A DNA stretch of 64,000 nt from Sphaerisporangium perillae (GTDB lineage Bacteria > Actinomycetota > Actinomycetes > Streptosporangiales > Streptosporangiaceae): the NCBI RefSeq assembly GCF_023276435.1, contig NZ_JALLPO010000030.1, forward strand, positions 1 through 64,000. Reading direction: 5' to 3'. The notes beneath the pieces are model-generated. The model did no database searches. It saw nothing but the letters and a program-made list of their open reading frames with translations, and was not told the origin of the DNA. A program made the translations under genes and the position numbers. This document shows, piece after piece, positions 5,052 to 64,000 of the stretch (position 1 is its first letter; each line of letters starts with the position of its first letter).

Positions 5052-6182
5052 ATGGCAGTGAGCCCGGCAGAGATCGCCGCTCGGCACGAGCGGCTTCGGC
5101 GCGGTATGGAGGCAGCGCACCTGGACGCTGTGCTGGTGGGTGAGAAGTACAACTACTGGTACCTGAGCGGACATCAGACCCGCGAAATCGAGAAGGTCAT
5201 GCGACCGATGCTCTTCCTCGTTCCGCTCGATGGTGATCCGGTGGCGGTGGTGTACCGGCAGCAGGGCTCGAGCGTGCAGGCCAAGGTGCCGGCGGCCCGT
5301 ATCTACGGCTATGAGGACGTGCCGTTCGACGTGGAGCTGCTCGAACAGGCGCTGCGTGAGAGCGGGCTCGAGCGCGGACGCATCGGCATGGAGCTTGGCG
5401 AGAACCACCGGCTGGGCCTGCCTTATACGGATCTGCGGTCTCTGCAGGAGGCGCTGCCCGCGATGACGATCGCGGACGCCGGCCCTGTCCTCGACGGCCT
5501 GCGTCTGCACAAGAGCGAGTACGAGATCGCCACACTGCGGGCCGCGGCCGACATGAGCCTGCTGGCCTGGTCCGCGGCGACCAAGCAGTTCCGGTCGGGC
5601 CAGACCGAGGCCGACTTCGCGACCTTGATGGCCGTCGAACTGTCGCGGGTGGGCAGCAACTTCGACGTCGCCGGCCACGTCAGCACCGCGACCAGCGTCG
5701 GTGACCGCACCGCCCCGCTGCGCCCGGGCGACACGATCTGGTGCGACTTCGGCGCGACGCTGGACGGCTACCAAGCCGATGTGGCACGGCGTGCGGTGCT
5801 CGGCGAGCCCACGAAGGAACACCTCGCCGTCCAGGAGTGCATCGCGACCCTGCATGCACGGACGTTGCAGGCGGTCCGGCCCGGAGCGCTCGCCAGCGAC
5901 GTCGCCCGCGCCTGCAGCGAGGCGATGGTGGACGCCGGCCTGCCGCCGCTGAGCGGCCGCAAGCGCATCGGGCACGGGCTCGGCCTCAATGCGGGCGAGT
6001 CGCCATCACTGAGCCTGCTGGACGCGACGGTGCTCGAACCCGGCGTGGTGATCTGCGTGGAGCCGCGCTACCTGCTCCCGACCGGCGAGAAGATCCACAT
6101 CGAGGACGTCGTGGTGGTGACCGAGGACGGATACGAACCCATCTCGCAGGGCTGCGGAACCCTGACCGTCATCGACGTCTGA
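5052..6182 (+). CDS. M24-family metallohydrolase (Xaa-Pro peptidase / creatinase / ectoine-hydrolase type)
   Basis: 376 residues from ATG 5052, which follows GGGAGAGTC; the frame is open further upstream but that part has no family character. The pita-bread fold metal ligands are all present in order: Asp in CDFGATLDGY, Asp in QADVAR, His in GHGLGLN, Glu in CVEPRYLLP and Glu in HIEDVVVV. The N-terminal creatinase-like domain covers roughly residues 10-140. Family members cleave Xaa-Pro bonds, creatine, or ectoine-like rings. It heads an operon with an ornithine-cyclodeaminase-family gene 24 bases downstream. That pairing also occurs in ectoine catabolism, but no deacetylase partner is present, so an amide-hydrolase role on an unknown substrate is inferred. 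Its first about 60 bases and leader are duplicated at 17984-18060. Confidence 0.9.
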   Translation: MAVSPAEIAARHERLRRGMEAAHLDAVLVGEKYNYWYLSGHQTREIEKVMRPMLFLVPLDGDPVAVVYRQQGSSVQAKVPAARIYGYEDVPFDVELLEQALRESGLERGRIGMELGENHRLGLPYTDLRSLQEALPAMTIADAGPVLDGLRLHKSEYEIATLRAAADMSLLAWSAATKQFRSGQTEADFATLMAVELSRVGSNFDVAGHVSTATSVGDRTAPLRPGDTIWCDFGATLDGYQADVARRAVLGEPTKEHLAVQECIATLHARTLQAVRPGALASDVARACSEAMVDAGLPPLSGRKRIGHGLGLNAGESPSLSLLDATVLEPGVVICVEPRYLLPTGEKIHIEDVVVVTEDGYEPISQGCGTLTVIDV

Positions 6183-6206
6183 CCCACACTTGATTGGAGG
6201 ATCGCT

Positions 6207-7166
6207 ATGCAACAGCCGCGCTACGTCTCCAGTTCGGTCTGCGAACAGGTGCTGACCCCGGCCCGCGCGGTCGAGCTCGCAGAGCTCGCCCTCTCCTGGG
6301 AGGCGCGTGACCGGGTGCATTACCCGATGCCGCGGGCGCTGCGGATGAGGCCGCCGGATCACGCGCTGCGCTTTCACTCCAAGGCGGCCGCACTGCCTGA
6401 GCTCGGTGTGGCCGGATGCCGGATCGTCGGCTATCGCGCCGAGCCTGACGGCACGCGTCCGGGGGCGGATCTCGCGACCCGGCTCGTCGTGCTCGTGGAT
6501 CTCGAGACCGGGGTACCGCTGGCCATCGTGGACGAGCACTACAACTACTCGCTGCGAACGGCCGCGAGCGTCGGCGTGGCGGCGCGGCGGCTGGCCAACA
6601 CGCCCGCGCGGCTGGGCGTGATCGGCGCGGGTGTGGTGGCCCGGGCGAGCGTCGCGGTGCTGCTGGCAGCCGTACCGGTGGCCGAGGTCGCGCTGTCGTC
6701 CCGGACTCCGCAGCGCTGTGCCGAACTGGCCGAACTGTCCCGCTCGCTGACCGACGCGGAGGTGCGGGTGCACGACTCGGCGGAGCCGGTCCTGGACGGC
6801 TCCGATCTGATCGTCACGGCGACGACCGCACGCGCGCCAATCGTCCGGGGACCGCTGCGGCCCGGCGTGTTGCTCTGCGCCATCGGGTCGAACGAGCTCG
6901 ACGCCGCGGCGTACCTCTCCTGCGACCGTTTGATCGTTGACGACTGGGCCCAGACAGAGGAGGCGGCCGATGTCGCCGGGCTGCTCGCGGCCGGGCATCC
7001 GATCAAGGAGCGGCTGGCGGGGGAGCTGTCGGGGCTGGTCGGCGGTAGCGTGCCCGGTCGTCGGCGCCCTGATGAGACGATCATCGTGCGCACCGAAGGA
7101 CTCGCCTCGCAGGACCTGCTGTTCGCCCACTGGGCGTGGCGGGAAGCCGAAAGGCTGGGGTTGTGA
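6207..7166 (+). CDS. Ornithine cyclodeaminase / mu-crystallin family protein
   Basis: 319 residues. A Rossmann nucleotide-binding motif GVIGAGVVARA lies near residue 130, preceded by the family segment YNYSLRTAASVGVAARRLA containing the conserved Arg. Family members are NAD(P)-dependent ornithine cyclodeaminases, alanine dehydrogenases or ketimine reductases. Which reaction applies here cannot be told. A TTGGAGG ribosome binding site precedes the ATG. The stop overlaps the GTG start of the next gene, so translation is probably coupled. Context with a RidA imine deaminase (11414) suggests that imine or enamine chemistry is part of the pathway; this is inference. Confidence 0.9.
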   Translation: MQQPRYVSSSVCEQVLTPARAVELAELALSWEARDRVHYPMPRALRMRPPDHALRFHSKAAALPELGVAGCRIVGYRAEPDGTRPGADLATRLVVLVDLETGVPLAIVDEHYNYSLRTAASVGVAARRLANTPARLGVIGAGVVARASVAVLLAAVPVAEVALSSRTPQRCAELAELSRSLTDAEVRVHDSAEPVLDGSDLIVTATTARAPIVRGPLRPGVLLCAIGSNELDAAAYLSCDRLIVDDWAQTEEAADVAGLLAAGHPIKERLAGELSGLVGGSVPGRRRPDETIIVRTEGLASQDLLFAHWAWREAERLGL

Positions 7167-48977: not shown

Positions 48978-49387
48978 CCCACCTCAGCGGTGCGATCCCC
49001 GATCCAGCGCTGCCTGGACAGCGCCGCACAAGATTGGGCCGTGGGTGACGGACCGAGCCGCCGGCCCGGCTTTTGATCGTCTGACCCAGGTCTGACCCTC
49101 GGACCGGCCGTCACCTTCCGTCCCGGACCGGCACGAGTGACCCACGCCCGGCTCGACCGTCCTCGCCGGAGGCCGGTCCGTGGTGAACGCTGAGTAGCCG
49201 TCGACGGTCGGCGGCCCCCCGGCGTATGGCGGCCGCTCATCTTGCTCCGCCTGCCGTTGGGCGGCAACCGGCGTCCGCTCGACGCATGGAGTGCCGCCTG
49301 AGCCTGTGAGACGTCGGCTTCAAGGTCATGATTCGAGGAGCCAATGCGTTTTGTCCGGCTACGTGCAATGTAGGAGGAAAAGTCGCA
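48978..49387. other. Intergenic stretch
   Basis: 410 bases between two plus-strand genes. No gene, RNA or repeat recognised beyond the ribosome binding site at its end (TAGGAGGAAAAG). Confidence 0.4.
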
Positions 49388-52300
49388 ATGTCCCCCACCC
49401 CCACCTCCCCCAACGCACCTGTCCCTACCACTGGGCCGGCGTTCCGCCCGTCCCGCCGTGCGGTCCTGGCCGGCGCCGGAGCCGCCTTCGCCGCCACGCT
49501 CATCCCCACCACCGCCACGCACGCCCGAGCCGACGATGCCCGCGACGGCGGCAAGACCTCCGTCGCGTCTGGTACCGACTTCGCCGTCGCAGTCTCACCC
49601 GACGGCCGCATGCTCGCCCTGGACATGCTCGGCGTCCTGTGGATCTGCTCCGCCTCCGGCGGCACCGCCCGCCGGCTGACCAGCGATCTGTACGACATCG
49701 CCCAGCCAGACTGGTCCCCGGACGGATCCACCATCGTGTTCCAGTCGTACCGCGACGGTGTCTTCAACCTGTGGACGATCCGGCCTGACGGGTCCGCGAT
49801 CAACCAGCTGACCACCGGGCCGTTCGACCATCGCGAGCCCCGGTACAGCCCGGACGGGCGCACCATCGCCTACTCGTCCGATGCCGGCGGCGGCTACGGC
49901 ATCCACCTGCTCGACGTCGCCACCGGCGCGACCCGTGTCCTGGCAGACTCCTCGGCCGAGGAGTACGAGCCGGCCTGGTCACCCGACGGGAGCGAAATCG
50001 CGTTCGTCGTCGCCGACACCAGGATCGACGTCGTGGACATGGCCACCGGCGCCCGCAGCACCAAGGTGACCGTCCCCGCCGGTCAGGTCATCCACCAGCC
50101 GTCCTGGACGCCGAACGGGACCGACGTCGCCTACCATCTCTTCCACGACGGCGCGAACGACCTGGCGGGCACCGCGGGCGCGCTTGTCACCGGCGAGGAG
50201 GTCTTCCCGTTCAGGGCCGGGTTCACTCCGGACGGGCGCTACTACTACACCTCCGCCGGCACCATCCGGACCCGCCGCCTCGGCTCCACGTCCGCAGGCA
50301 CGGTCGGCTTCACCGCCGCACTCACCGCGACGACCCCGAAGTACAAGAAGAGCGTCCGCGTGTTCGACGCGCCCGGGTCGTTCCCGGTCATGGGCATCGG
50401 CAGCCCGACCATGTCCCCGGACGGCTCCACCATCGCGTTCCGCGCACTCAACGACATCTACCTGATGCGCATCGGGCACGAGCCGACCCCGCTGTTCGGC
50501 GACCGGTGGTGGAAGGCCGACCCGGACTTCTCCCCGGACGGGCGGCAACTGGTGTTCGTCAGCGACCGCACCGGCACCCTCAACGTCTGGGTCCGCGACC
50601 TCGCCACCGGCACCGACCGGCAACTGACTCATCTGACAGACTCCGCCGCCCTCTCGGTCCGGTGGTCACCGAACGGGAAGGAGATCGCCTACCTGGACCA
50701 GGACGGCGCGCTGTGGGTTCTGGACGTCGCCACCGGTGACATCCAGAAGGTCTTCGACGCGACCTTCGAACCCGGTCGGCCGACCTGGTCGCCGGACGGG
50801 AAGACGATCGCCTTGGCTGCGGTCGTGCCGTACTCGCGACGCTACCGTGAGGGCCTGTCCAAGATCCTTCTCGTCGACCGGGCGACAGGCGCCGGTACGT
50901 ACGTGGACCCGGCCCCGCACCGATCGCTGCAGACCCGCGGCGACGACGGCCCCGTCTGGTCACCGGACGGCACCATGCTCGCCTTCGCCATGGAGTCGCT
51001 GCTGTGGGTCCTGCCGGTCGACAGGACCGGACGGCCCACGGGCCCTGCCCGCCAGGTCACCCGAGAGCTGTCCGACGCCCCGGCCTGGGCCGGCGACTCC
51101 GCCACCCTGCTCTACCTCAACGGCGCGCGGCTGAGGACCGTCCGCATCGACGGCAAGCCGGGCCGGTCCATCCCGGTCCGGCTGTCCTGGCGCAACGATC
51201 CCGGTCCCGAACAGGTCGTCGTCCACGCCGGCCGCATGTGGGACGGCGTCTCCGCGACCGTCGCCCGCGATGTCGACATCATCGTGCGCGGTCAGCGCAT
51301 CGCGGCGATCGAGCCGCACCGGGACGGACGGCCAGGCACCCTCGTCGACGCCGGTGACAAATTCGTCATGCCCGGCCTGATCGACATCCACCACCACCGC
51401 GAGATGCAGGGATACGCCTACGGGTCCCGGCAAGGGCCGCTGTGGCTCGCCCTCGGCATCACGACGACCCGCTCACCCGGCTCGCCCGCCTTCCACATGG
51501 TCGAGGAGCGCGAGTCGGTCCAGTCCGGGGTGCGGCTCGCGCCGCGCTACCTGGGCACCGGTGAGGCCATCGATGGGCCGCGCATCTACTACAACTTCAT
51601 GCGCCCGACGTTCTCTCACCAGCAGTTGCGGCTCGAGCTCGAACGGGCCGCCGGCCTCGACTACGACCTGATGAAGTGCTACGTGCGGCTTCCCGTCGCC
51701 TGGCACAAGGAGGTCATCGGCTGGGCCCACCGTCAGGGCAAACCGGTCACGTCCCACTACCACTACCCGGCGATCGCGATGGGGGGAGACGGAACCGAGC
51801 ACGTCGGTGCGACCAACAGGTTCGGCTACTCACGCACCGTCACCAATGTCGGCTCGGCCTACTCGGACGTCATCTCCATGTTCAACGCGTCGAAGATGGC
51901 GCGCACCCCCACCCTGTTCGGCTGCAGCACCCTCTACAGGGAGGACACCTCGCTGGTCACCGACGAGCGGGTCCAGCGGCTCTACCCGAACTGGCGGATG
52001 GCGAAGCTACAGGCCTCCGTCACCGCCGCGCAGACCACCGACCAGACGGTGGTCCGGGCGAACCTCGCCAACCAAGTCGCGCAGCTCGTGGCGATGATCC
52101 GCGGTGGCGGCGTCGTCACAGCCGGCACCGACGCACCGATCGATCACCTCGCGGTCAGCCTGCACATGAACCTGCGGGCCATGGTGAAGTACGGCCTGAC
52201 CCCGCTGGAGACGCTGACCGCCGCGACCAGTACGTCGGGGACGTATCTCGGCCTGCCGCTGGGCAGGATCGGCAAAGGCATGTACGCCGACCTGGCCATC

Positions 52301-52561
52301 GTCGACGGCGATCCGCTGTCCCGCATCGAGGACGCCGCGAACGTCGCCGGCGTCGTCGTCGGCGGGAGGTACCACACGGTCGAGCGGCTGCTCGCGCCGT
52401 ACCCGTCGTCCACGACCACCGACCAGGCCGTGCCCGCTGCCCTGGCATCCCGGGGCAAGGTCAAGGCCCGTGTCCCCGCCCACCCGAGTACCGCGGGCTT
52501 CTGGTGGAACCACCCCGCCGAGCTGGAGAAAGCCCGCGTCTCCTGCGGCCACGACCACTGA
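49388..52561 (+). CDS. TAT-exported TolB-type propeller fused to an amidohydrolase
   Basis: 1057 residues from ATG 49388, with AGGAGG about 11 bases before it. A TAT signal is present (SRRAVLAGAGAAFAATLIP). Residues about 60-590 contain repeated PDWSPDGSTIVFQS-like blades of a WD40/TolB propeller. The C-terminal about 420 residues are an amidohydrolase: VMPGLIDIHHHREMQG metal site, SHYHYPAIAM, and TAGTDAPIDHLAVSLH near the end. It should act outside the cytoplasm on an amide or peptide-like substrate, with the propeller giving substrate selection. The two-domain layout is a known actinobacterial architecture. Confidence 0.92.
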   Translation: MSPTPTSPNAPVPTTGPAFRPSRRAVLAGAGAAFAATLIPTTATHARADDARDGGKTSVASGTDFAVAVSPDGRMLALDMLGVLWICSASGGTARRLTSDLYDIAQPDWSPDGSTIVFQSYRDGVFNLWTIRPDGSAINQLTTGPFDHREPRYSPDGRTIAYSSDAGGGYGIHLLDVATGATRVLADSSAEEYEPAWSPDGSEIAFVVADTRIDVVDMATGARSTKVTVPAGQVIHQPSWTPNGTDVAYHLFHDGANDLAGTAGALVTGEEVFPFRAGFTPDGRYYYTSAGTIRTRRLGSTSAGTVGFTAALTATTPKYKKSVRVFDAPGSFPVMGIGSPTMSPDGSTIAFRALNDIYLMRIGHEPTPLFGDRWWKADPDFSPDGRQLVFVSDRTGTLNVWVRDLATGTDRQLTHLTDSAALSVRWSPNGKEIAYLDQDGALWVLDVATGDIQKVFDATFEPGRPTWSPDGKTIALAAVVPYSRRYREGLSKILLVDRATGAGTYVDPAPHRSLQTRGDDGPVWSPDGTMLAFAMESLLWVLPVDRTGRPTGPARQVTRELSDAPAWAGDSATLLYLNGARLRTVRIDGKPGRSIPVRLSWRNDPGPEQVVVHAGRMWDGVSATVARDVDIIVRGQRIAAIEPHRDGRPGTLVDAGDKFVMPGLIDIHHHREMQGYAYGSRQGPLWLALGITTTRSPGSPAFHMVEERESVQSGVRLAPRYLGTGEAIDGPRIYYNFMRPTFSHQQLRLELERAAGLDYDLMKCYVRLPVAWHKEVIGWAHRQGKPVTSHYHYPAIAMGGDGTEHVGATNRFGYSRTVTNVGSAYSDVISMFNASKMARTPTLFGCSTLYREDTSLVTDERVQRLYPNWRMAKLQASVTAAQTTDQTVVRANLANQVAQLVAMIRGGGVVTAGTDAPIDHLAVSLHMNLRAMVKYGLTPLETLTAATSTSGTYLGLPLGRIGKGMYADLAIVDGDPLSRIEDAANVAGVVVGGRYHTVERLLAPYPSSTTTDQAVPAALASRGKVKARVPAHPSTAGFWWNHPAELEKARVSCGHDH

Positions 52562-53428: not shown

Positions 53429-54079
53429 TTATACCTCATGTGATCGTGATTCAGGAGACCCCGCCGAACGGGAGGCATCGACCTCGGCCGATGCGGAAGA
53501 GCGGGACGCGCGCCACATGGGATACATGACCGGGCCGCCGGGCAGCCGGAGCAGCTCCGGCATGTCGGCATAGCCGTGGCGGAGATAGAGGCGGCGGCTC
53601 GCCTCACTGCTGGCCTCCAGGTAGGCGGGCATCTCTTGGGCGTCGAGCCGCCCGTGGTGCTCCTCCAGCAGCAGGCTGCCGAGGCCGCGGCCGGTCTTTC
53701 CTCGTGCCAGGGCGATGAACGCCAGGTAGTGGTGCGGCTCGTGGGGGTGGAGCTTGTCCATCTGCTGCCCTAAGACGCCGTACCGTTCGGCGTGTTCCCC
53801 GGCGAAGGAGGCGATCGCCTCCTCCTGGCCGGGGATCTCGGGGAACGGCGCGGTGAACCACACCGCGACGCCGGCGAGCGCGCCTGACTCGCGGATCCCG
53901 TAGACATCGCCGTGGTCGAGCGCGTGCGCGACGTGCATGGTGAAGAAGCGCCGCTGGATCGGCAGGCGGTCCCGCACCGGCGGGACGAGCCAGCGGGTGA
54001 TCGCATCGGAGCCGAACGTGTCGGCGATGAGCTCGCCGGCCAGGGCCGCGTCCCTCATCCGGGTGATCTCGGCCGTCAC
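53429..54079 (-). CDS. GNAT-family N-acetyltransferase
   Basis: 216 residues from GTG 54079, whose GTGA overlaps the stop of the permease gene. The acetyl-CoA-binding motif is seen as ALARGKTGRGLGSLLLEE near residue 135, followed by PAYLEASSEASRRLYLRHGY. The frame upstream of the GTG is shadow sequence within the permease. The substrate is unknown; coupling to an amino-acid/polyamine permease suggests an imported amine is acetylated (inference). Confidence 0.87.
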   Translation of the reverse strand: MTAEITRMRDAALAGELIADTFGSDAITRWLVPPVRDRLPIQRRFFTMHVAHALDHGDVYGIRESGALAGVAVWFTAPFPEIPGQEEAIASFAGEHAERYGVLGQQMDKLHPHEPHHYLAFIALARGKTGRGLGSLLLEEHHGRLDAQEMPAYLEASSEASRRLYLRHGYADMPELLRLPGGPVMYPMWRASRSSASAEVDASRSAGSPESRSHEV

Positions 54080-55548
54080 TTGGTGCCTCCACTGACGGCC
54101 TGGGCGCCGAGGCCGATGTTGGCGTACACCTTGGGCCTCGTCGCCTTCAGCACACGGGCCCACGCGACGCCGAAGGCGATGGCGACGACGAAGATGCCGG
54201 GCAGGATCCATCGGATGGCCGAGTCGGGGGCGACCCCGAGGACCGTGTCGAAGTTGATCAGTGTCAGTCCGATGATCACGCCTAGCGCCAGGGCCGCCAG
54301 GGCCGGGGCGACGCGTGTCCGCCATGCCGTCTCCCCCCGAGGGTCGCGGGCGAAGAAGACGATCACCGCGATGGAGGTGACGGTGAGCAGGGTCAGCAGC
54401 CCGAGGCCGCCGAAGGCGCCGAAAGTGAAGAACAGCTTCGTGACCGGGTCGAGGCCGAAGATCGCGTAGGCGCTGATCACGATCAGCCCGAGCGCCGTCT
54501 GCAGCACCGATCCGGCCGTCGGGGCGGCGGTGCGGGCCGAGGTGCGCCCGAACACCGAGGGGAGCACGTTCTCGCGGCCCAGGGCGAAGATGTAGCGGGC
54601 CGTGGTGTTGTGAAAGGCGATCATGCAGGCAAGGCTGCTGGTCACGAACAGTACGGAGCCGACGGTGGCGATGGTGGAGCCCAGGTGGGCGGACGCCTGG
54701 TTGAAGATCAGCACGGTCCCCTGCTCGGATGCCGCCTTGACGATTCCGTCCGGCCCGGTCGGCAGCGTCTGGGCCCAGGCGGAGACCGCGTACAGAACTG
54801 CGATGATCGCGATGCCCAGGTAGGTGGCGATGGGCACGGTCCTGTTGCGGTCCTTGGACTCCTCGGCGAAGACCACCGACGACTCGATGCCGGCGAACCC
54901 CGCGACGACGGTGGCGAGCGCGGCGCCCACGCCGGGCACGAACAGCGAGCCGGGAGTGAAGCCCTCGAAGCTGATGCCGCTCGGGGCGGCGTGACTCAGG
55001 TCGCCGAGGCCGAACAGCAGAACGATGGCGATCTCGCTCACCAGCAGGACGGAGAGGATCCTGCCGTTGACGTCGACCCGCAGCAGGCCGAGCAGGCCGG
55101 TCAGCGCCCACGCCACCAGCGCGATCACCCACCACGCGGGCGAGGCGCCGAACCAGTCGAGGAGCAGTGGCTCGGCCGCCGACCCGATGATGCCGTAGAG
55201 GCCCAGTTGCAGCGCGTTGTAGGCCAGCAGTGCCACCCACGCCGTCGCCACGCCGGTCGTCCGGCCGAGTCCTTGGGCGGCATAGGCGTAGAAGGCGCCC
55301 GCGTTCACCACGTGCCTGGCCATCGTCACGTACCCGACGGCGAAGAGCGTGAACACCGCGCCCAGCATCAGGAACGCGAACGGCACACCGATGACGCCCG
55401 TCACCGCGTACGCCGTCGGGACCGAACCCGCGACGACCATCAGCGGCGCCGCCGCGGAGATGACGAAGAACACGATCGACGGGACACCGAGCCGATCTTC
55501 GGCCAGGGCGGCGGAGACGGCGCTGGGCCGTTGCTCTGTGAGGGACAT
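54076..55548 (-). CDS. APC-family amino acid/polyamine permease
   Basis: 490 residues from ATG 55548, preceded by CGGAGCTCCAG. About twelve to fourteen hydrophobic helices. The first helix FFVISAAAPLMVVAGSVPTAYA and FAGIESSVVFAEESKDRNRTVP in the middle are typical of the amino acid-polyamine-organocation superfamily. The C-terminus overlaps the acetyltransferase start. Substrate unknown. Confidence 0.9.
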   Translation of the reverse strand: MSLTEQRPSAVSAALAEDRLGVPSIVFFVISAAAPLMVVAGSVPTAYAVTGVIGVPFAFLMLGAVFTLFAVGYVTMARHVVNAGAFYAYAAQGLGRTTGVATAWVALLAYNALQLGLYGIIGSAAEPLLLDWFGASPAWWVIALVAWALTGLLGLLRVDVNGRILSVLLVSEIAIVLLFGLGDLSHAAPSGISFEGFTPGSLFVPGVGAALATVVAGFAGIESSVVFAEESKDRNRTVPIATYLGIAIIAVLYAVSAWAQTLPTGPDGIVKAASEQGTVLIFNQASAHLGSTIATVGSVLFVTSSLACMIAFHNTTARYIFALGRENVLPSVFGRTSARTAAPTAGSVLQTALGLIVISAYAIFGLDPVTKLFFTFGAFGGLGLLTLLTVTSIAVIVFFARDPRGETAWRTRVAPALAALALGVIIGLTLINFDTVLGVAPDSAIRWILPGIFVVAIAFGVAWARVLKATRPKVYANIGLGAQAVSGGTK

Positions 55549-55582
55549 CTGGAGCTCCGTGGGGTGGGGGGCGGGAAGTGGG

Positions 55583-56224
55583 TCACCGGCGGCTGATGAC
55601 GGCTTGGCCGACGGCGACCTTGGTCTGGGCGATGAGTCTCTGCAGCGGTACGGGCAGCGTGGCGGTCGTGGCGGCCACGAACGCGGGATCGTGCTCCCAC
55701 AAGACCCGCTGGTCACAGCCGGTGGCGGCCAGGAGCCCGTAGAGGACGCAGTCCATGACCACCGGAGGCTTGCGCCGCTGGACGGCGAGGTTGAGGCGGG
55801 CGAGCGGCCACGCCGCAGTATTCGTGTCCACGGGGGCCGCGGGCTGCTGTCTCAACAGGTGCCTTGCCGGCGGGTTGAGCAGTTTCGCGGCCACCATCCT
55901 GGCCCGGACGTCGGCGTAGATCGTACGGGCGAAGAAGAGGAGCCACGTGCCCACCGGATGTTGCGGCTCGGCGATGATGTGGCCGAGCACCTTCTGTGTG
56001 AGCGGATCGCCAGTGGCGTCCTGGGCGGTCGCCCAGAGGCGGTCCTGGCCCGAGGCGAGGTCGACGGTCACACGCTCGGCGAGCATCAGCTCCGCCAGGA
56101 CGGCGCCCGCCAGCCCCAGGCTCGTGAGGCGGGGATGTAGCCGCGCGTGACCCGTCACGTTGTCGTGCAGGACAAAGTAGAGATCGTCGACCAGTGACGG
56201 GCCCAAAAGATCACCTTCAGCCAC
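55583..56224 (-). CDS. GPP34-family (GOLPH3-like) protein
   Basis: 213 residues from GTG 56224; the frame is open further upstream, but only this start fits family length. It shows DLLGPSLVDDLYFVLHD, GLAGAVLAELMLAERV and the C-terminal ATLPVPLQRLIAQTKVAVGQAVI. GPP34 proteins are many in actinomycetes and are thought to bind phosphoinositide-like lipids at membranes, with unclear roles. Upstream (56225-56520) is an AT-richer gap separating it from the RiPP cluster. Confidence 0.8.
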   Translation of the reverse strand: MAEGDLLGPSLVDDLYFVLHDNVTGHARLHPRLTSLGLAGAVLAELMLAERVTVDLASGQDRLWATAQDATGDPLTQKVLGHIIAEPQHPVGTWLLFFARTIYADVRARMVAAKLLNPPARHLLRQQPAAPVDTNTAAWPLARLNLAVQRRKPPVVMDCVLYGLLAATGCDQRVLWEHDPAFVAATTATLPVPLQRLIAQTKVAVGQAVISRR

Positions 56225-56520: not shown

Positions 56521-57675
56521 TCACCCCCCTTGGCGCGCCTGCTCCGCGGCGGCGAACCGTCGGAGCGCATCGAGGGCCGACAGGCCATAGAGGTCCTCCA
56601 CGGCGTTGGCCAGCAGGTGGCACAGCCGGAACCTGTCGAGCGGGGTCAGGCCCATCCGGGTGAGGTGCAGGTAGGTGTAGTTGAGCAGCACCCGGTAGCG
56701 CAGGAAGGCGGGGTTCGCGAAGACCGCCTCGTGGTAGGCCGGGCTGTCGAAGATGAGGCGCTGCAACTCGTTCGGATCCCGCCGCGGCACCGGCAGGTCG
56801 CCGAGCCGGGCCTCGAACGCCTCGCCCGGCTTGGTCATCGGCTGGGCCAGCCGGCCGTCCTCCATCAGCGTGCCCGCCCGGGCGCGGTACCGCTCCAGCA
56901 GCGCGGACCACTCCCGCACGAACGGCACGGGCGGGGCGGCCGGGTCGTCCAGCGCGGCGACCACCTCCCGCACCCGCCCGGTCAGGGCCGCGCGCCGCTC
57001 CCGGAAGTCGCGCTCGAAGGCGGCCCGGGTCGCCTCGGGATCGGCCGCCCAGGTGATGAACCCCTCCGCGTGCATGCGGTAGGAGACGTAGCTGCGGGTG
57101 ATGGGGTGCGAGGTGTGCGCGACGGTCAGCATGAGGCTCATCGCCACGCCGAGCCTGCCGTCCCGGCCCGCGCGCACGTGGTCGAGCATGGCGAACAGCA
57201 GCGGGGTGCTGTCGGTGTAGAACGCGGCGAGCAGGTCCACCGCCTCGTCGCCGCCGAGGACGTGCCGCCGCGAGTCGTACGGCGCGTCGCGGATGGAGTT
57301 GTCCGGCGGCCACGGCGTGAGCGGCCCGTGCTCCTGCTCCCGTACGGCGAGCAGGCGGTGCCGGGTCAGACTCTCAGCCGGATCGAGCACGGTCGTGGAG
57401 GGGTGCTCGCGCAGATGGCCTCCGACGACCTGCTCAATACGCGGGCGCACCACCGCCTGCCAGACCCGCGGCGCGGCCTTGACGTTGATCCGCAGGTGCG
57501 GGCCCTGCCTCCAGTGGCGCAGCACGTACGCCGCCTCCACCTGGCCGCGCAGCCTGTCGAACAGCGGCCGTACGGCGTCGAGCAGCAGGCCGTCCTTGTC
57601 GGGGGCGTGGTAGTAGACGTGGACGCAGTGCCAGGTCGGGGCGTCCTGGGCGGGCGAGCCGGTCAGGGGGATCAC
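56521..57675 (-). CDS. Thiopeptide-type cyclase (pyridine synthase-like, TbtD type)
   Basis: 384 residues from GTG 57675, whose GTGA overlaps the previous stop. The N-terminal TWHCVHVYYHAPDKDGLLL and YVLRHWRQGPHLRINVKA match the thiopeptide-type bacteriocin biosynthesis (SpaB C-terminal-like) domain, and the C-terminal NYTYLHLTRMGLTPLDRFRLCHLL is typical of the larger members. In thiopeptide pathways the last such protein forms the pyridine ring by a formal [4+2] cycloaddition between two dehydroalanines and releases the leader. Assignment rests on position and size; the reaction is inferred. Confidence 0.78.
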   Translation of the reverse strand: MIPLTGSPAQDAPTWHCVHVYYHAPDKDGLLLDAVRPLFDRLRGQVEAAYVLRHWRQGPHLRINVKAAPRVWQAVVRPRIEQVVGGHLREHPSTTVLDPAESLTRHRLLAVREQEHGPLTPWPPDNSIRDAPYDSRRHVLGGDEAVDLLAAFYTDSTPLLFAMLDHVRAGRDGRLGVAMSLMLTVAHTSHPITRSYVSYRMHAEGFITWAADPEATRAAFERDFRERRAALTGRVREVVAALDDPAAPPVPFVREWSALLERYRARAGTLMEDGRLAQPMTKPGEAFEARLGDLPVPRRDPNELQRLIFDSPAYHEAVFANPAFLRYRVLLNYTYLHLTRMGLTPLDRFRLCHLLANAVEDLYGLSALDALRRFAAAEQARQGG

Positions 57676-58691
57676 CTCCGGGAGTCGATGCGGCCGGCCA
57701 GGTCGGCGAGGGCGCGGGCGAGCAGGAAGGACACGTGGTGCTCGGTCCCGGCCCGCAGGCCCAGCCGGTTGTGGAACAGGTGGGCGCACCGCAGCAGGAC
57801 CAGCGGAACCGTGCGGCGCTCGGGCGGCACCGCCATGGCGAGGAAGGCGTGCGGGGAGCCCGAGTCGGACGGCGCGCACCTGCCCGCCGCGTGCAGCGCG
57901 GCGAGGTCGTCGCGCAGGCCGCGCACCGAGGACGCCCACGCGCCGAGCAGGCCGCCGCCGGACTCCGGAAGGTCCCACAGCCCGCGGGTCTGCGCGAGCA
58001 GGGCATCCCTGCGGCGCAGCCAGTCGTCCTCCCCGCCTGGGATCTCGGGCCGCCGGCCCGCCTCCCGGGCCGCCGCGGCGAACCGGCGCGTGGCGGCGGG
58101 CAGGTCGGGCTCGCAGGCGGCGAGCGCGATGGTGAGCGCGGCCAGCCCGATCGCGGCGCGCCGCTCCATTCCGGCCCCCGCGCGCAGCACGTCGAGCGCG
58201 AGCGCGCTCGACACCGTGAAGTGCCGCTCCGCGGCGGAGACGCAGGCGGCGCCGCCGTAGGCCGCGTGCTCCGGCCGGTAGGCGATGAACTCCACCGAAT
58301 CGGTGCGGTGCAGCCGCTCGTCATACCGCTCGCGCCGCTCGCCCCTGGCGACGGTCGCCGCGAAGGCGCGGTACGCCTCCAGGTCGACCGGGGGAGAGGG
58401 GCGCGCGGCGAAGTGGGCCGCCGCCCGCTCGCGCACCAGGTCGCGGGCGTGCGCCGCCCGCGAGGGATCGGGGACCTCCACCCGCAGCCGCACGTGCTGG
58501 CCGCCCTCCCAGTAGCGCAGGAAGAAGTGGCCGCGCGCCGTCCCGTCGGCGGCCAGCTCCCGCACCACCGGCTCCACCACGCCGGTGACCAGGGCGTCGA
58601 GGTCGCCGAAGTGGAACAGGTGGGCGCTGACCCAGCGGCCCGCGGCCCCCTGGTCCGCGCCCGTCCGCGCGCCCGTCCGCGTGCCCGTCAT
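57672..58691 (-). CDS. Lantibiotic dehydratase C-terminal-type protein (glutamate elimination, TbtC type)
   Basis: 339 residues from ATG 58691, overlapping the LanB stop by ATGA. After a Thr/Gly-rich tail it reads WVSAHLFHFGDLDALVTGVVEP and GHFFLRYWEGGQHVRLRVEV, the SpaB_C fold. In split dehydratase systems the partner of the glutamylating enzyme removes glutamate to give Dha/Dhb; this placement directly after LanB supports that role. The very long open frame covering both this gene and antisense-like sequence up to 60959 is a high-GC artefact. Confidence 0.82.
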   Translation of the reverse strand: MTGTRTGARTGADQGAAGRWVSAHLFHFGDLDALVTGVVEPVVRELAADGTARGHFFLRYWEGGQHVRLRVEVPDPSRAAHARDLVRERAAAHFAARPSPPVDLEAYRAFAATVARGERRERYDERLHRTDSVEFIAYRPEHAAYGGAACVSAAERHFTVSSALALDVLRAGAGMERRAAIGLAALTIALAACEPDLPAATRRFAAAAREAGRRPEIPGGEDDWLRRRDALLAQTRGLWDLPESGGGLLGAWASSVRGLRDDLAALHAAGRCAPSDSGSPHAFLAMAVPPERRTVPLVLLRCAHLFHNRLGLRAGTEHHVSFLLARALADLAGRIDSRR

Positions 58692-61339
58692 CGGCCCGGC
58701 CCCGCGGAGAGCTGGACGACGTACTCGGTGACCCGTCTCCCGGCGCCGTACAGGGGGGCGTCGGCCGGGTCGGGCAGGGCCTCCTCCAGCACCACCAGCG
58801 CCCCCGGGTCGCGCAGCGAGCGCAGGAACCCGGTCAGCAGGAGCATGTCGCTCACGTCGACGTACATGGGCTTGCGGTCCTTGCTGAGCAGCCCCACCAG
58901 CAGGCCGTCCCCGAGGTCGACCACCCGCGCGAAGAAGCGGCGGGGCATGCCGTGCCCTGCCAGCCATCCGGCCAGCCGCGGCAGATATGCGGCCTCGCCC
59001 TCGCCCTTGGCGGGCGCGGGGAAGTCGCCGGCCCGCAGCCGCCAGGCCGCCCGGGCGAGCGTCACGCGTCCGACGTCCATCCGGGGCCAGCGTTCCACGT
59101 CGCCCGCGGCCGGCATCTCGCCGCGGGTGCGGAAGACCCAGCCGGGCACCATCGCCGTGGACGGCTCGCCGAACGCCCGCACGAGGAACTGCAGCCACGG
59201 CGGCAGCCAGTGCTGGGCGGTCATCCCCAAGTGGACCGGCCGGACCGCGCGGCCCTTGCCGTCGTGCAGCGCCAGCCGGTCGCACCCGGGGTCGTAGCCG
59301 ACGGTGAGGTCCGCGGGCGCGAGGGGCGGCAGGTCCGCGTCCCCGGCCGTGAACGGGTGGTTCAGGGCGAGGTCGGCCGTCGCCGTGCGCAGGTTGAGCC
59401 CGCCGCCCACGAGCCCCCGGCACTCGGCCACCAGCACGTCGCCCTGCGGGGCCCGCAGCTCCGGGGCGGGCGGGGCCTCCCCACCGGCCAGCCCGACCAG
59501 CCGATGCAGCCGCGACAGCCCCCTGCCGTACCCGGCCGAGATCGAGTTGACGACGGCGCGCACGCCGTCCGGCCGGTCCGGTACGGCCTGCAGGTAGCAG
59601 CAGATCGACCCGGGCGGCCGGGCGAAGCGCGGCAACGAGGCGGTGAAGCCGGCCAGGCGGGCGGCCGTGACGTCGACCACGGCCTCCGGCGCCGAGGGGC
59701 CGGCCCCCGCCAGCTCCCAGAACCTCCGCCGCAGCTCGGACAGCTCGCGCAGGCCCGGCGGGGGCTCCTCGCCAGGCACCACGCGCGGCGCGGCCACGGG
59801 ATTGCGCAGCATCTCGCGCAGCAGCGCGCCGCCCGCCCCGGGGACCCCGGCGTGGACCTCGTGGTAGAGGTCCAGGGCCGGGATCCGGCCGCCGGGGCCG
59901 TGCCGGTCGAGGAAGAAGGCGGTGACGGCGATCTTGACCGGCAGGTCGGGGTCGAACAGGCCGAGCAGGCGGCGCACGGCGTCGAGGTCGTCGCACACCC
60001 CCCGCCAGGCCGCCGCGCTCAGCCGTCCCGCGACGCCGGGCATGACGGCGCTGTGCCAGAGCAGGTTCTTGCCGGGCAGCGACGGCCCGGCCGTCCCGGC
60101 CGGCAGCACCTCCTCCAGTGCCTCCCGCACCACCGCCGCGGGGCCGGCGAACTCTCCCTGCGGCGCCGGGTGCGGGTGCTCGGCAGGCGATGACGGCGGG
60201 TGGCCGGCTGCCTCCCGCAGTGCCTCGGCCATCCGGCCGACGGCCGCCGCGTACGGCGACGCGCCGGCCTCGGCGAGCCAGGACGCCAGCAGGCCCACCG
60301 GGCCGGCCGACTGCTCGTCGTACGGCGGGACCAGCTCCAGCAGACCCGCGTCGACCAGCGCCTCGATTCCGGGGGCCCCGGCGACCGTGGGGAAGGGGTG
60401 TCCGCGTACCCAGTCGAGGGCCTGCCGTACGCCGGGGCTCGCGGGCACGCTGGAGAGCGGCTCGGTGGGGCCGGGGCCGAGGAACCACACCCGGCCGCCG
60501 TCGTCGGCCGCGGAGGGGTTGACCCGTAGCAGCGCCCGCTCGCGCACGGGCCGGTGCCGGGTGAGCGCCGACCACAGCGGGCGCAGGACCGCCCGGTCGA
60601 GCTCGGCGACCTCGCGCCAGAGCGGCTCGCCGCTGGTCCATACGGCGGGACCGCCCGCCGTCCAGCGGCCGAGCCCGCTGAGGGTGAACGTGGCGTACGG
60701 GCTGGTCTTGACCGTCGCCCTCGCGACGTACCTCGCCAGCCGCAGCAGCTCCTGCCGGTCCGGTGGGCGGTCCGCCGGCCCGGCGAGCCAGGCGTCGAGG
60801 CGGGCGGCCAGCACCGGGCTGCCCTGGGCGACCCCGCGCCGGAAGCCGTCGTCGGCCACCGCCTCGCGCAGCAGCGCGGCCTTCTCCCGCGACTCCTCCG
60901 CCAGCACGGCGGGCAGCGCGGTCCGCAGCGCGTCCGCGCGGTCCCTCCGGGCGGTCCACTCCCTGACCCGCGCGGCAAGCTCCTCCGGGAGAGCGGCCAG
61001 CACCTCGGCGGAGGCGGCCCGGCCGGACGGGCGGCGTCCGGAGAACACCGCGCGCCGCAGCGCGACCAGCCCGGGCTTAAGCGGGCCGCCCGCCGCGCCA
61101 CCGATCACCTCGTGCAGCGGGCCGGAGAGCTCGGCGCCCTCCCGCCGCAACCACTCGGTCAGGTCCGCGAGCCGGTCCACGATCTCCCACGTGCGGGTAC
61201 AGCGCATCCGGTCGAGCCCCGCCAGGGGCAGGCCCGCGACGCGGACCGCGAAGACCGGCGACACGGCATAATTTCGATCGGCGAGCCTTATCGGGTCGCC
61301 GCCCCCGGCAGCGGGGGCGGCCTGCGTTACATGAGTCAA
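58688..61339 (-). CDS. LanB-type tRNA-dependent glutamylating dehydratase
   Basis: 883 residues from TTG 61339; GAGGAG lies nine bases before it, and a nearby ATG (61332) is out of frame. The lantibiotic dehydratase N-terminal domain is recognised from YVARATVKTSPYATFTLSGLG (about residue 205), FFLDRHGPGG (about 495) and the C-terminal VGLLSKDRKPMYVDVSDML. LanB proteins use glutamyl-tRNA to activate Ser/Thr side chains of the precursor. The elimination domain is a separate gene downstream, as in thiopeptide clusters. It follows the precursor gene after a strong hairpin. Confidence 0.9.
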   Translation of the reverse strand: MTHVTQAAPAAGGGDPIRLADRNYAVSPVFAVRVAGLPLAGLDRMRCTRTWEIVDRLADLTEWLRREGAELSGPLHEVIGGAAGGPLKPGLVALRRAVFSGRRPSGRAASAEVLAALPEELAARVREWTARRDRADALRTALPAVLAEESREKAALLREAVADDGFRRGVAQGSPVLAARLDAWLAGPADRPPDRQELLRLARYVARATVKTSPYATFTLSGLGRWTAGGPAVWTSGEPLWREVAELDRAVLRPLWSALTRHRPVRERALLRVNPSAADDGGRVWFLGPGPTEPLSSVPASPGVRQALDWVRGHPFPTVAGAPGIEALVDAGLLELVPPYDEQSAGPVGLLASWLAEAGASPYAAAVGRMAEALREAAGHPPSSPAEHPHPAPQGEFAGPAAVVREALEEVLPAGTAGPSLPGKNLLWHSAVMPGVAGRLSAAAWRGVCDDLDAVRRLLGLFDPDLPVKIAVTAFFLDRHGPGGRIPALDLYHEVHAGVPGAGGALLREMLRNPVAAPRVVPGEEPPPGLRELSELRRRFWELAGAGPSAPEAVVDVTAARLAGFTASLPRFARPPGSICCYLQAVPDRPDGVRAVVNSISAGYGRGLSRLHRLVGLAGGEAPPAPELRAPQGDVLVAECRGLVGGGLNLRTATADLALNHPFTAGDADLPPLAPADLTVGYDPGCDRLALHDGKGRAVRPVHLGMTAQHWLPPWLQFLVRAFGEPSTAMVPGWVFRTRGEMPAAGDVERWPRMDVGRVTLARAAWRLRAGDFPAPAKGEGEAAYLPRLAGWLAGHGMPRRFFARVVDLGDGLLVGLLSKDRKPMYVDVSDMLLLTGFLRSLRDPGALVVLEEALPDPADAPLYGAGRRVTEYVVQLSAGPGR

Positions 61340-61370
61340 CGGAACGCGCTCCTCGTGTGGTTCGCCGGGG

Positions 61371-61405
61371 GGCCGAGGGCGCCCGTGGCGTGGGCGCCCT
61401 CGGCC
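61371..61405. terminator. Perfect 14-bp hairpin between precursor and LanB genes
   Basis: GGCCGAGGGCGCCC pairs exactly with GGGCGCCCTCGGCC across a 7-base loop. On the transcribed minus strand it lies 66 bases after the precursor stop and 31 bases before the LanB start. It is well placed to act as an attenuator or RNA-stabilising end so that the peptide is made in excess over enzymes. Confidence 0.7.
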
Positions 61406-61471
61406 CTGCTCATCTCACCGGCGGGCCTGTGGGCTCACCGGTCCCGATCGCCGCCCTGGGCGTCGCGGGGC

Positions 61472-61651
61472 TTACGCCTCCGGCGCCCAGCAGCTGGTGG
61501 CCGACAGGTAGGACGAGCAATAGCCGGTGTAGGAGGAAGCGCCGGTCTCGATGGTGCCGTGGCCCTCCACCACGATGGAGTCGGCGGACAGCACGTCGAT
61601 GGAGTCCACCTCCAGACCGCGCAGGTCGAGCTTCAGGCCGTCGTTGTTCAT
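61472..61651 (-). CDS. Thiopeptide-like RiPP precursor peptide
   Basis: 59 residues from ATG 61651 with AAGGAGACAAAC directly upstream, too short for most gene finders. The leader (1-38) is acidic (LKLDLRGLEVDSIDVLSADS) and ends in EGHGTIETGA, very like the AGHGM.EVGA end of known thiopeptide leaders, so cleavage after Ala38 is expected. The core, 39-59, has Ser at 39, 40, 46, 47, 50 and 53, Thr at 42 and 52, Cys at only 45 and 54, Tyr at 41, 44 and 48, and the C-terminal tail WAPEA. Known thiopeptide cores are much richer in Cys. It lies between the SagB and LanB genes. Confidence 0.85.
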   Translation of the reverse strand: MNNDGLKLDLRGLEVDSIDVLSADSIVVEGHGTIETGASSYTGYCSSYLSATSCWAPEA

Positions 61652-61725
61652 GTTTGTCTCCTTCTGAGAATGGTCACTGCGTCTTCGCTTGGGCGCGGGC
61701 CGTGAACCATGTGGTCACGGCGTCA

Positions 61726-63402
61726 TCAGGGAGTGGGCGTCACCTCCTCGCGTGAGCCGGGCGGGATCTGGCGGGCCAGGAGCGGCCCGCCGGTCAGGGG
61801 CGTGCCCATCACCAGGAAGGACAGGCTCCGCAGCGGGGTTCCGGCGATCCCGAGCACCTCGTCGGTGGTGTCGTTCACGCCGTCGGAGTGGATGCGCGCG
61901 GCCAGGCCCAGCGCGGCGGCGGCCAGCGCGGCCCGCTGGGTGACCAGGCCCGCCTCGATCTGCTGCAGGCGGTACCACCGGTCGCCGAACAGGCCGACGC
62001 CCGCCAGCGGGTCGCCCACGGGGACGAGCACGGCGGCGGCCCCGCGCAGCGCGAGCCGGGTGTTGGCCAGCAGGCGTCCGGTGGCCACGGCGGCCACCCG
62101 GTCCGCGCCGGCGACCTCGCCCAGCACCCGCGCCTCCGGGTCGTACCAGTACGCGCCGCGGGGCAGCCCGTCCACCCTCAGGGCCAGCAGGCACACGGCG
62201 GTCGCCGCGGGTCCCTCCCCGGCTCCGGGCAGGTCGCCGGGGTACCCGCCGCCCGCGGCCGCCAGGATCGCGCCGAGCGCGCCTCCCGGGAAAGGGGCGG
62301 GCCGGTACCCGGCCGGCGGGGACGCGCGTCGCGGCACCCCCGCCGCCGGCCGCACCCCGGGTGCCGGCTCCGGCGCGGGGACGGTGGCGCCGGGCTCCAC
62401 CGGCGGGCAGGGCAGCAGCCGAGCCGGAGAGGAGGGGCCGGGGGCGTGGCCGACCGTGCCGGCCCGGTGCAGGGCGGCGGCCGGGCCCTCGAGCATCGGC
62501 AGGGGGAGCGGCGCGCTCTCCCTGGCGGCCGGTCGCCAGAGTGGCGGGCCGTCCACGGGGCACGGCGCGCCGTCCGGGGCCGCGAGGGGCCTGAGCGGCG
62601 TGCCCGGGTCGCCCGCGGTCCGAGACCGGGGGAGGGGCGCGGCGTCCCGGGCGGTGCCGTGCGATCCCGCGGCGAGTCCGGATGGCAGCGTGAGCGTGAG
62701 CACGGCCAGCGCGGCCTCCCGCGCGCCGTCGAGCCCGAGCAGGCGGTCGACCTCCCCGTCCGGGAACCGCAGGTGGGCACGGGTGGCCAGGCCCAGCCGC
62801 CCGGCGACGGCCAGCGCCTGGGCGAGGAGCACGCCGGTCTCCTGGCACATCAGGCGGTAGCCGAAGTCGCCGTACTTGAACATCGACCGCCAGAACACCG
62901 CGGACAGCACGAGCGTGACGTCCGGCGCCGGCGAGTCCGCGAGCAGGCCGGTGAGAGCCGGGGTGTGGTCGCCCTCCCGCACGCGTTCCAGCGCGTGGTG
63001 CACCGGGTCGTAGTGGTACAGGGCGGCGGGCAGACCGGGGACGCGGGGTTCCCCGGCCGCGACGTACGCCTCGATGGGGTACAGCCCGCCCCCCGAGGGC
63101 GCCGGGCGGCCGGCGAGGAGGATCGGCGGCTCGCCCAGCGGGCCGCCGAGGTCGTCCAACTGGTGGAACCACACGACCCTGGCCACGCCGAGCAGCTCCC
63201 GCAGGAGCTCGCCGATCAGGTCGAGGGCCGCGCCCTCCCGGGTGGTGCCCCAGGGCAGGACGGCGCGCTCGGCCTCCGGGTAGCGCTTGTGCCGGGTGGG
63301 GGCGTTGGCCCGGTCGATGGAGAGCGGGCCCCGGTTCCGCATCGCGGCCAGGTAGCGGCGGGTGGCGTCGCCGGGCGCGTTCGTCGCCGTGGTGCCGTGC
63401 AT
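61726..63402 (-). CDS. SagB-type FMN dehydrogenase (azoline oxidase, TbtE type)
   Basis: 558 residues; the ATG follows GAGGCAGACCGG. The N-terminal half shows nitroreductase/SagB features: RAVLPWG, RPAPSGGGLYPIEAYVAAG, LYHYDPVHHALERV and VFWRSMFKYGDFGYRLMCQETG. The C-terminal half repeats a nitroreductase-like pattern (WYRLQQIEAGLVTQRAALAAAALGL). A Pro/Ala-rich linker joins them (about 295-370). It oxidises azolines made by YcaO to azoles with FMN. It lies 59 bases after the YcaO stop. Confidence 0.87.
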   Translation of the reverse strand: MHGTTATNAPGDATRRYLAAMRNRGPLSIDRANAPTRHKRYPEAERAVLPWGTTREGAALDLIGELLRELLGVARVVWFHQLDDLGGPLGEPPILLAGRPAPSGGGLYPIEAYVAAGEPRVPGLPAALYHYDPVHHALERVREGDHTPALTGLLADSPAPDVTLVLSAVFWRSMFKYGDFGYRLMCQETGVLLAQALAVAGRLGLATRAHLRFPDGEVDRLLGLDGAREAALAVLTLTLPSGLAAGSHGTARDAAPLPRSRTAGDPGTPLRPLAAPDGAPCPVDGPPLWRPAARESAPLPLPMLEGPAAALHRAGTVGHAPGPSSPARLLPCPPVEPGATVPAPEPAPGVRPAAGVPRRASPPAGYRPAPFPGGALGAILAAAGGGYPGDLPGAGEGPAATAVCLLALRVDGLPRGAYWYDPEARVLGEVAGADRVAAVATGRLLANTRLALRGAAAVLVPVGDPLAGVGLFGDRWYRLQQIEAGLVTQRAALAAAALGLAARIHSDGVNDTTDEVLGIAGTPLRSLSFLVMGTPLTGGPLLARQIPPGSREEVTPTP

Positions 63403-63462
63403 CCGGTCTGCCTCGCTTCCTTGCCGGTTCTGCGGATTCCTGGTGAGCGGGGGCGGCCGCGG

Positions 63463-64000
63463 TCAGGGGAAGGGGTGCGGGTACGGGTTCAGCTGGTCGG
63501 GCCGCAGGTCGTCGTCCCGGTAGCCGAGCCGCCGGGGCAGGGACAGCAGCCGCGGCAGGCCGTGGGTGCGCCGGTGCCGGTGCCCGAACGTCATGGGCAT
63601 CGCCCCCGGCACGATGACCTTCGCGGCGGAGAAGCCACCCGCCCGGGCCTCGGGAGAGGTGATGTCGACGGCGATCACGTCCAGGCCGCTCGCCAGGTAG
63701 CGCCCGGCCAGCTCGGCGAGGTCCGCCGTCAGGTCGTCGTGCTCGGGCCAGCCGAGCCGCGCCGTGACCTCCGCCACCGTGAGCGCGGGCCCCTCCAGCG
63801 GGAGGAAGCCCAGCCGCCCGGACGCCTCCGGGTGGCCGTAGAGCAGGGGATGGTGCTCCAGGAGCCGCACCTGGCCGGAGTCGGCCGCCAGCCGGGCCGC
63901 CTGCTCCGGGTCGTACCGCTCGATGTGCCCCTCCAGCATCGGGCCGAGGTCGTCGAGCGCCCGGCGCAGCGCCTCCTCCGGCGACAGGTGGGCGGCGGTG
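63463..64000 (-). CDS. YcaO-domain cyclodehydratase, C-terminal part (gene runs off the window)
   Basis: The last 178 codons are present; the start lies beyond 64000. The YcaO family is recognised from SGLDVIAVDITSPEA, VIVPGAMPMTFGHRHRRTHG and the Pro-rich C-terminus NPYPHPFP, which is important for catalysis in azoline-forming YcaO proteins. It would use ATP to cyclise Cys (and perhaps Ser/Thr) of the precursor to azolines. An E1-like/RRE partner (TbtF type) is not seen and would be expected just outside the window. Confidence 0.88.
   Translation of the reverse strand, partial: TAAHLSPEEALRRALDDLGPMLEGHIERYDPEQAARLAADSGQVRLLEHHPLLYGHPEASGRLGFLPLEGPALTVAEVTARLGWPEHDDLTADLAELAGRYLASGLDVIAVDITSPEARAGGFSAAKVIVPGAMPMTFGHRHRRTHGLPRLLSLPRRLGYRDDDLRPDQLNPYPHPFP

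Follow-up and report, generated by a model that had tools for sequence, protein, structure and literature searches.

A thiopeptide-type gene cluster of Sphaerisporangium perillae with a putative pyritide-like second ring-closing site

The closest described systems to the gene cluster considered here are those of thiomuracin and GE2270 (Tbt, Pbt), lactazole (LazA-F) and the pyritides of Micromonospora rosaria (MroA-D). Rings of known thiopeptides were put at 26-35 members as of 2020, and engineered lactazole substrates giving rings of 14 to 62 members are reported to be accepted (PMC7210931). The lactazole cluster, which is minimal and azole-poor, is described with its second Ser, Ser12, followed by Cys13 near the C-terminus (PMC7210931). 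The M. rosaria cluster is reported to have no azole genes and precursors without Cys, its rings being 14- and 17-membered. Substrate recognition by pyritide enzymes involves both the leader and the three C-terminal residues that directly follow the second Ser. In natural pyritides this Ser is commonly preceded by Thr, and with engineered substrates MroD closes rings as large as 68 members (PMC9247985). The cluster analysed here is a seven-gene operon, ordered F-G-E-A-B-C-D on the minus strand, which fills the final 7.5 kb of the window (the whole stretch analysed, namely bases 1-64000 of a 125-kb contig, C45 of genome G000, in the 9.3-Mb genome of Sphaerisporangium perillae) and continues beyond it on the same contig. 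It very probably directs the synthesis of a pyridine-centred macrocyclic peptide of the thiopeptide kind, with few azoles and a ring that is unusually large compared with relatives. Regarding the ring itself, the preferred reading, held here with a probability of roughly two in three, is that the pyridine joins Ser39 and Ser53 of the precursor, giving a 41-membered ring without an obligatory azole beside the pyridine on the Thr52 side.

Gene A (61472..61651, minus strand) encodes a 59-residue precursor with a leader (residues 1-38) and a core (residues 39-59) that reads SSYTGYCSSYLSATSCWAPEA. The leader ends in GHGTIETGA directly before the core, and the same GHG..E.GA pattern precedes the first Ser in the thiomuracin-type precursor of L191, a locus with the core SCNCFCYICCSCSSA and a D frame in which the TbtD stretches occur. 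Within the window's core, Cys can be found at positions 45 and 54 and Ser at positions 39, 40, 46, 47, 50 and 53, together with two Thr and three Tyr; this count bears out the azole-poor composition given in the first-pass annotation, a model's reading of the window's letters and open frames, and the mere two Cys set the core apart from those of thiomuracin and GE2270. Over the 17 members of the family that could be aligned, the core consensus is S S x x [GPS] Y C S S Y [LM] x A [TMCN] S C W [AVT] [PT] E x, with Ser39, Ser40, Tyr44, Cys45, Ser46, Ser47, Tyr48, Ala51, Ser53, Cys54, Trp55 and Glu58 invariant in 17/17. Residue 52 is Thr in six members, Met in six, Cys in three and Asn in two, and the C-terminal motif of the window reads Thr52-Ser53-Cys54-Trp-Ala-Pro-Glu. 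A Cys-Ser-Cys at the place of residues 52-54 occurs in three members with two distinct cores (L067-L069), like that at Ser11 of the L191 precursor. If the second alkene arises from Ser46, the residue before it is Cys45; if it arises from Ser53, the preceding residue is Thr in the window, Met or Asn in 8/17 members and Cys in 3/17.

The evidence that points to Ser53 comes from sister precursors, which were located by means of a D-protein tree of 72 rows (out of 75 distinct proteins; a quick tree covered all 75). The 19 rows of the window's family group together (100/99) within a 32-row clade (98/96), and the pyritide D proteins, including that of M. rosaria (L136), form a separate 7-row clade (100/100). 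With L191 added, TbtD is placed outside the 32-row clade, for which the support is then 98/99; PbtD and LazC are absent from these trees. What appears to be new is the pairing of a thiopeptide cluster with a putative second site of the pyritide type, the D clade standing apart from both the pyritide and the thiomuracin D proteins. The other 13 rows of the 32-row clade yielded 10 distinct sister precursors; a precursor was not found in L079, L081 and L091, nor in rows L073 and L074 of the family itself. A C-terminal x-Ser-Cys is present in eight of the ten sister precursors, x being G, G, I, P, G, T, G and G. In four of them (L075, L077, L078 and L115), the first Ser and the Ser of x-Ser-Cys, the latter preceded by Gly or Ile, are the sole Ser before the tail when Thr is left aside, L077 having an extra Ser as its last residue. 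With no alternative Ser pair, these four must use the x-Ser-Cys Ser and, since Ser53 is homologous to it, the second alkene of the window's product would lie at Ser53. The T-S-C-W of the window also resembles the T-S-W of precursors L087, L127, L130 and L137.

Ring sizes were counted from the anchor that a Ser1-Ser10 spacing gives a 26-membered ring. Applied to the two pyritides, the relation between spacing and ring size yields the published 14 and 17 (PMC9247985); it predicts 41 members for the window's family, 32 for L075 and L078, 38 for L077 and 47 for L115, whereas the thiomuracin-type core of L191 gives 29 by the same count.

Several points weigh against Ser53. The pair Cys45-Ser46 is equally invariant (17/17) and would give a classic azole-dehydroalanine (azole-Dha) pair. 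The nearest outlier of the tree, L114 (85/94), has a Cys-Ser-Cys aligned with the Cys45-Ser46 place, through which its predicted ring would have 35 members, against 56 by the motif rule. Two of the ten sister precursors (L082 and L083) have Pro-Ser-Phe instead of Ser-Cys, and L120 and L118 (the latter outside the 72-row tree) have a precursor-like frame lacking the first Ser, which was excluded before the count. Regarding described enzymes, LazC appears to need an azole (oxazole) before the second Dha, and the Cys behind the second Ser of lactazole is reported to be replaceable by Ala (PMC7210931); Thr before the second Ser is no help to MroD, 6/10 Thr variants being poor substrates or non-substrates (PMC9247985). 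In an alternative reading, the ring-closing pair is Ser39 (or Ser40) with Ser46, preceded by a thiazole from Cys45, or, on the lactazole pattern, with Ser47, preceded by an oxazole from Ser46; the ring would have 20 (17, 23) members and carry a long tail. Such a small ring would explain a Cys45-Ser46-Ser47 that is invariant in 17/17, would follow the classic thiazole-Dha pattern, and has company in the 14- and 17-membered rings of pyritides (PMC9247985); on account of the Cys45-Ser46 invariance and the Cys-Ser-Cys of L114, it is considered unlikely rather than negligible. However, the two-Ser sisters L075, L077, L078 and L115 lack a residue corresponding to Ser46, and the conserved Ser-Cys-Trp-Ala-Pro-Glu end would be left without an evident role.

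The first-pass annotation had proposed a small ring from Ser39 or Ser40, with Cys45-Ser46 as the best candidate, on the premise that a thiazole is required before the second dehydroalanine. The four two-Ser sisters make Ser53 the better candidate and, with the second alkene placed there, the premise falls too, the preceding residue being Thr, Met or Asn rather than Cys in 14/17 members, at variance with thiomuracin and GE2270, and Gly, Ile, Pro or Thr in 8/8 motif-bearing sisters. Met and Asn in the window's family, and Gly, Ile and Pro in the sisters, would thus be tolerated where LazC appears to need an oxazole.

Closure of a ring in the first place is suggested by the D protein (56521..57675, minus strand; its GTG start codon overlaps the stop of C in GTGA), a predicted [4+2] pyridine synthase scoring 506.5 bits (cut-off 325) against NF045556 TbtD_PbtD_pyrid. 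Its residues 12-368 align with TbtD (PDB 5wa3, E 4e-62), and PbtD is also matched end to end. Over 23 aligned D proteins, 58 columns are invariant, including Tyr334 (P0002 numbering), which is kept in 23/23 and aligns with TbtD Tyr319, the Tyr of CTYLHL when the L191 frame is numbered from its ATG; TbtD Tyr319 is reported in a review as a key catalytic residue. It can be argued that the product is instead a linear dehydrated azole peptide, goadsporin- or dehydrazole-like, with D inactive or otherwise employed; no product is known, and dehydrazoles are described as pairing Ser dehydration with azoles. The score of D against the TbtD/PbtD equivalog model, its end-to-end alignment with TbtD and the invariant Tyr334 make such a peptide quite improbable.

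The remaining enzymes belong to the same set as in thiomuracin and GE2270. Gene G, whose 3' part lies in the window (63463..64000, minus strand), encodes a YcaO cyclodehydratase (YcaO PF02624, 7.8e-17 for the in-window part); the whole protein, completed from the contig, matches PF02624 (278 bits), TIGR03604 (328 bits) and TIGR03882 (116 bits) and is a YcaO fused to a thiazole/oxazole-modified microcin (TOMM) leader-binding domain (TIGR03882 plus TIGR03604). Its domain matches begin at ~65.2 kb of the contig, and the open frame extends to 65.8 kb. Gene F, before G and outside the window, encodes an ocin-ThiF-like protein, residues 11-89 of which match PbtF (PDB 8t19, E 1.2e-9). Gene E (61726..63402, minus strand) encodes a SagB-type azoline dehydrogenase (TIGR03605, 139 bits) with two nitroreductase-like stretches, which also matches McbC and other SagB-type structures. 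Gene B (58688..61339, minus strand, TTG start assumed) encodes a split LanB with Lant_dehydr_N, a TbtB-like enzyme for glutamyl-tRNA-dependent Ser/Thr glutamylation, residues 25-877 of 883 matching TbtB (PDB 6ec7, E 3.4e-106), and gene C (57672..58691, minus strand) encodes the glutamate elimination protein (Lant_dehydr_C, 130 bits; TIGR03891, 86 bits). Judged by the matches of F, of the YcaO and leader-binding G, of B to 6ec7 and of D to TbtD and PbtD, F-G-E-A-B-C-D is a complete thiopeptide machinery and, in gene content, a thiopeptide cluster: a [4+2] pyridine synthase of the TbtD/PbtD kind, an azole-forming YcaO with leader-binding partner and azoline dehydrogenase, and a split glutamylation/elimination dehydratase are all present. 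The thiopeptide-type assignment of the first-pass annotation is thus upheld by the family matches of the seven genes; the YcaO, SagB dehydrogenase, 59-residue precursor, split LanB and two SpaB_C-like proteins that it had reported in one direction all lie where it placed them, and the rest of the YcaO and the RRE/E1 partner that it sought beyond 64000 can both be found on the contig (complete G and F).

With the pyritides, the family would share a non-azole residue before the proposed second Ser and a conserved C-terminal motif behind it, and with lactazole the azole-poor minimal cluster and a Cys that follows the proposed second Ser near the C-terminus. Nevertheless, two invariant Cys, YcaO and SagB genes in the operon and the position of D outside the clade of pyritide D proteins indicate that this is not a pyritide cluster. 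The family rather looks like a natural combination of azole genes with a second site bearing its own C-terminal motif, Ser-Cys-Trp-Ala-Pro-Glu, and the thiopeptide/pyritide hybrid character suggested earlier is supported.

In the proposed pathway, the leader would be bound by F together with the leader-binding part of G, G with E would convert Cys45 and Cys54 (perhaps Ser40 or Ser47 as well) to azoles, and B with C would produce dehydroalanines from Ser39, from Ser53 and probably from some of Ser46/Ser47. D would join Dha39 and Dha53 by a formal [4+2] reaction and expel the leader (residues 1-38) as its amide. The predicted product has a pyridine, adjoined by the Cys54 thiazole, in a 41-membered ring and ends in a Trp-Ala-Pro-Glu-Ala tail. 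An azole is not required at Thr52, which would leave an ordinary amino acid on that side of the pyridine, as in pyritides. For a product with a pyridine and two thiazoles, the calculated [M+H]+ is 2122.80, less 18.01 per additional dehydration, and is equal for the two ring readings; the leader amide (residues 1-38, with Met) is calculated at 3950.99 Da. Every chemical step, like the choice of Ser53, is read here from the genes, their families and the conserved core and motif.

More tentatively, and with the odds lying slightly against the proposal as a whole, the family may represent a separate branch between thiopeptides and pyritides, in which azoles are made but D recognises the second alkene through a Ser-Cys motif at the C-terminus (in many cases Ser-Cys-x-Ala-Pro) instead of through an azole in front of it. 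Natural ring size would vary freely (predicted 20-47, 56 if L114 obeys, 41 here), and the invariant Tyr-Cys-Ser-Ser-Tyr, as Tyr-thiazole-(Dha/Ser)2-Tyr, would form an active face with a target of its own. If this holds, natural thiopeptide rings would exceed, without engineering, the 26-35 members stated in 2020 (PMC7210931), and a natural enzyme clade would unite thiazole chemistry with motif-guided, azole-independent ring closure, the latter being what makes pyritide enzymes attractive for peptide libraries.

Regarding the precursor itself, a search of 341 genomes of the bacterial family gave matches in 17, including the window's own; 16 share the core and one (G253) is of a sister type. A further member, L100, from a Catenulispora bin, brings the family to 17 members, i.e., 16 other loci. 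The order F-G-E-A-B-C-D, in the same direction, is found in 14/16 of these loci (13/15 in family genomes, plus L100), the remaining two (L066 and L069) being interrupted by contig ends. An order-wide search with a profile of 13 precursors matched 39/345 genomes at E <= 0.001, comprising the same 16 genomes, four sister genomes (G008, G241, G253 and G257) at E 5e-17 or better, and 19 others (E 2e-8 or worse) that are taken for leaders of other thiopeptides; a phylum sample of 396 genomes gave only the window's own genome and one weak match in a 450-aa frame (E 5.5e-5). Since the same precursor occurs in 15/340 other family genomes and the seven genes keep their order, it is, on this conservation, real and not a chance frame. 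The match to the GetA thiazolyl peptide model (NF033399, thiomuracin/GE37468 precursors) is weak (18.6 bits, below the curated cut-off of 29). The near-identity of the core across Microbispora, Nonomuraea, Herbidospora and the Catenulispora bin suggests that the product probably does something specific. Carriers of the family's precursor and D include Microbispora bryophytorum DSM 46710, Nonomuraea thailandensis DSM 46694 and Herbidospora mongoliensis NBRC 105882.

The ribosome site of the precursor gene reads AGAAGGAG. In the 139-nt gap between A and B lies a hairpin (61370..61406, minus strand) with a 15-bp stem and a 7-nt loop (z -3.6 against shuffles, a control made for the window's gap only), and a hairpin of 12-17 bp can be found at most 140 nt after A in 17/17 members. 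Since its arms change between members while pairing persists, it is probably a partial terminator or mRNA-processing hairpin that favors the precursor mRNA.

In precursor comparisons with 7 of the 16 relatives, the proportion of non-synonymous differences (pN) was below that of synonymous ones (pS) in 7/7, with non-synonymous to synonymous rate ratios (dN/dS) of 0.28-0.53 (0.22-0.72 in the 21-residue core alone, where numbers are small). Together with open frames in 7/7 operon genes, this makes a silent or decayed cluster without product most improbable, although relatives do lose the cluster, with a scar in L088 and pieces only in L073, L074, L079, L089 and L090. In L088 (G154, ~5986-6713), F residues 1-127 are joined to D residues 263-378 (L062 numbering), all between being gone. 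The stretches analysed of L073, L074, L089 and L090 (Herbidospora group) and of L079 (Nonomuraea aurantiaca) hold remnants of the same or a related cluster, which consist of C and D alone, of just the tail of D, or of D accompanied by pieces of F and B. These remnants and the scar suggest repeated cluster loss.

Six proteins flanking the operon, including those of the DrrAB transporter genes beside F and an amino-acid permease (54076-55716), were sought in 15 family loci (~20-kb stretches), and five were unmatched; the sole match is a DrrA-like gene, 42% identical, in one locus (L062), also facing away from F and ~2.2 kb off. No flanking frame of at least 120 aa is common to more than three of the 15 loci. 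Since flanking genes are unshared among loci, the cluster is taken as the seven genes, and the neighbours (DrrAB, the permease and others) were rejected as parts of it. These seven conserved genes include no resistance gene, transporter or tailoring enzyme (the remaining genome was not searched for resistance genes), the want of a tailoring gene being a further difference from thiomuracin and GE2270, and the neighbourhood therefore gives no hint of the target. Elsewhere in the window, 49328-52561 encodes a 1077-aa protein that combines propeller repeats with an amidohydrolase domain and has no link to the cluster.

The first-pass annotation names no known compound with this core, and six core pieces were likewise unmatched in open-licence PubMed Central text (MIBiG and other licences lay outside the search). 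No 41- or 38-membered thiopeptide was found in that text, the only 38-membered mention being a macrolide. The matches listed for thiopeptides of the host organisms include GE2270 congeners of Nonomuraea jiangxiensis.

Some unusual precursors can be found around the sister and pyritide-type D proteins. In the Saccharothrix loci L115, L117, L118 and L120, Asp-Cys repeat precursors (SCDCGGECDCDCDCTGSCEAIA in L115) stand beside D proteins of the 32-row-clade type; the L118 frame, with a core lacking Cys and Ser, looks decayed. L076 (G008, 3857-4343) has two neighbouring precursors, SSVSSAPSCIKAEFDDPI and SSSTSSFGSCLKAEFDDPI, each with a single Cys; rings of 20 and 23 members containing one thiazole may result. 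Pyritide-type precursors ending in (T/K)SW(L/V)(I/V), with D in the M. rosaria clade, occur in L087/L123, L126, L127, L130, L133 and L137, from Microbispora, Nonomuraea, Herbidospora and Sphaerisporangium melleum, and possible further pyritide types, with cores ending in SYMV or SHMV, are present in L138 and L165 (Actinomadura oligospora, Microtetraspora).

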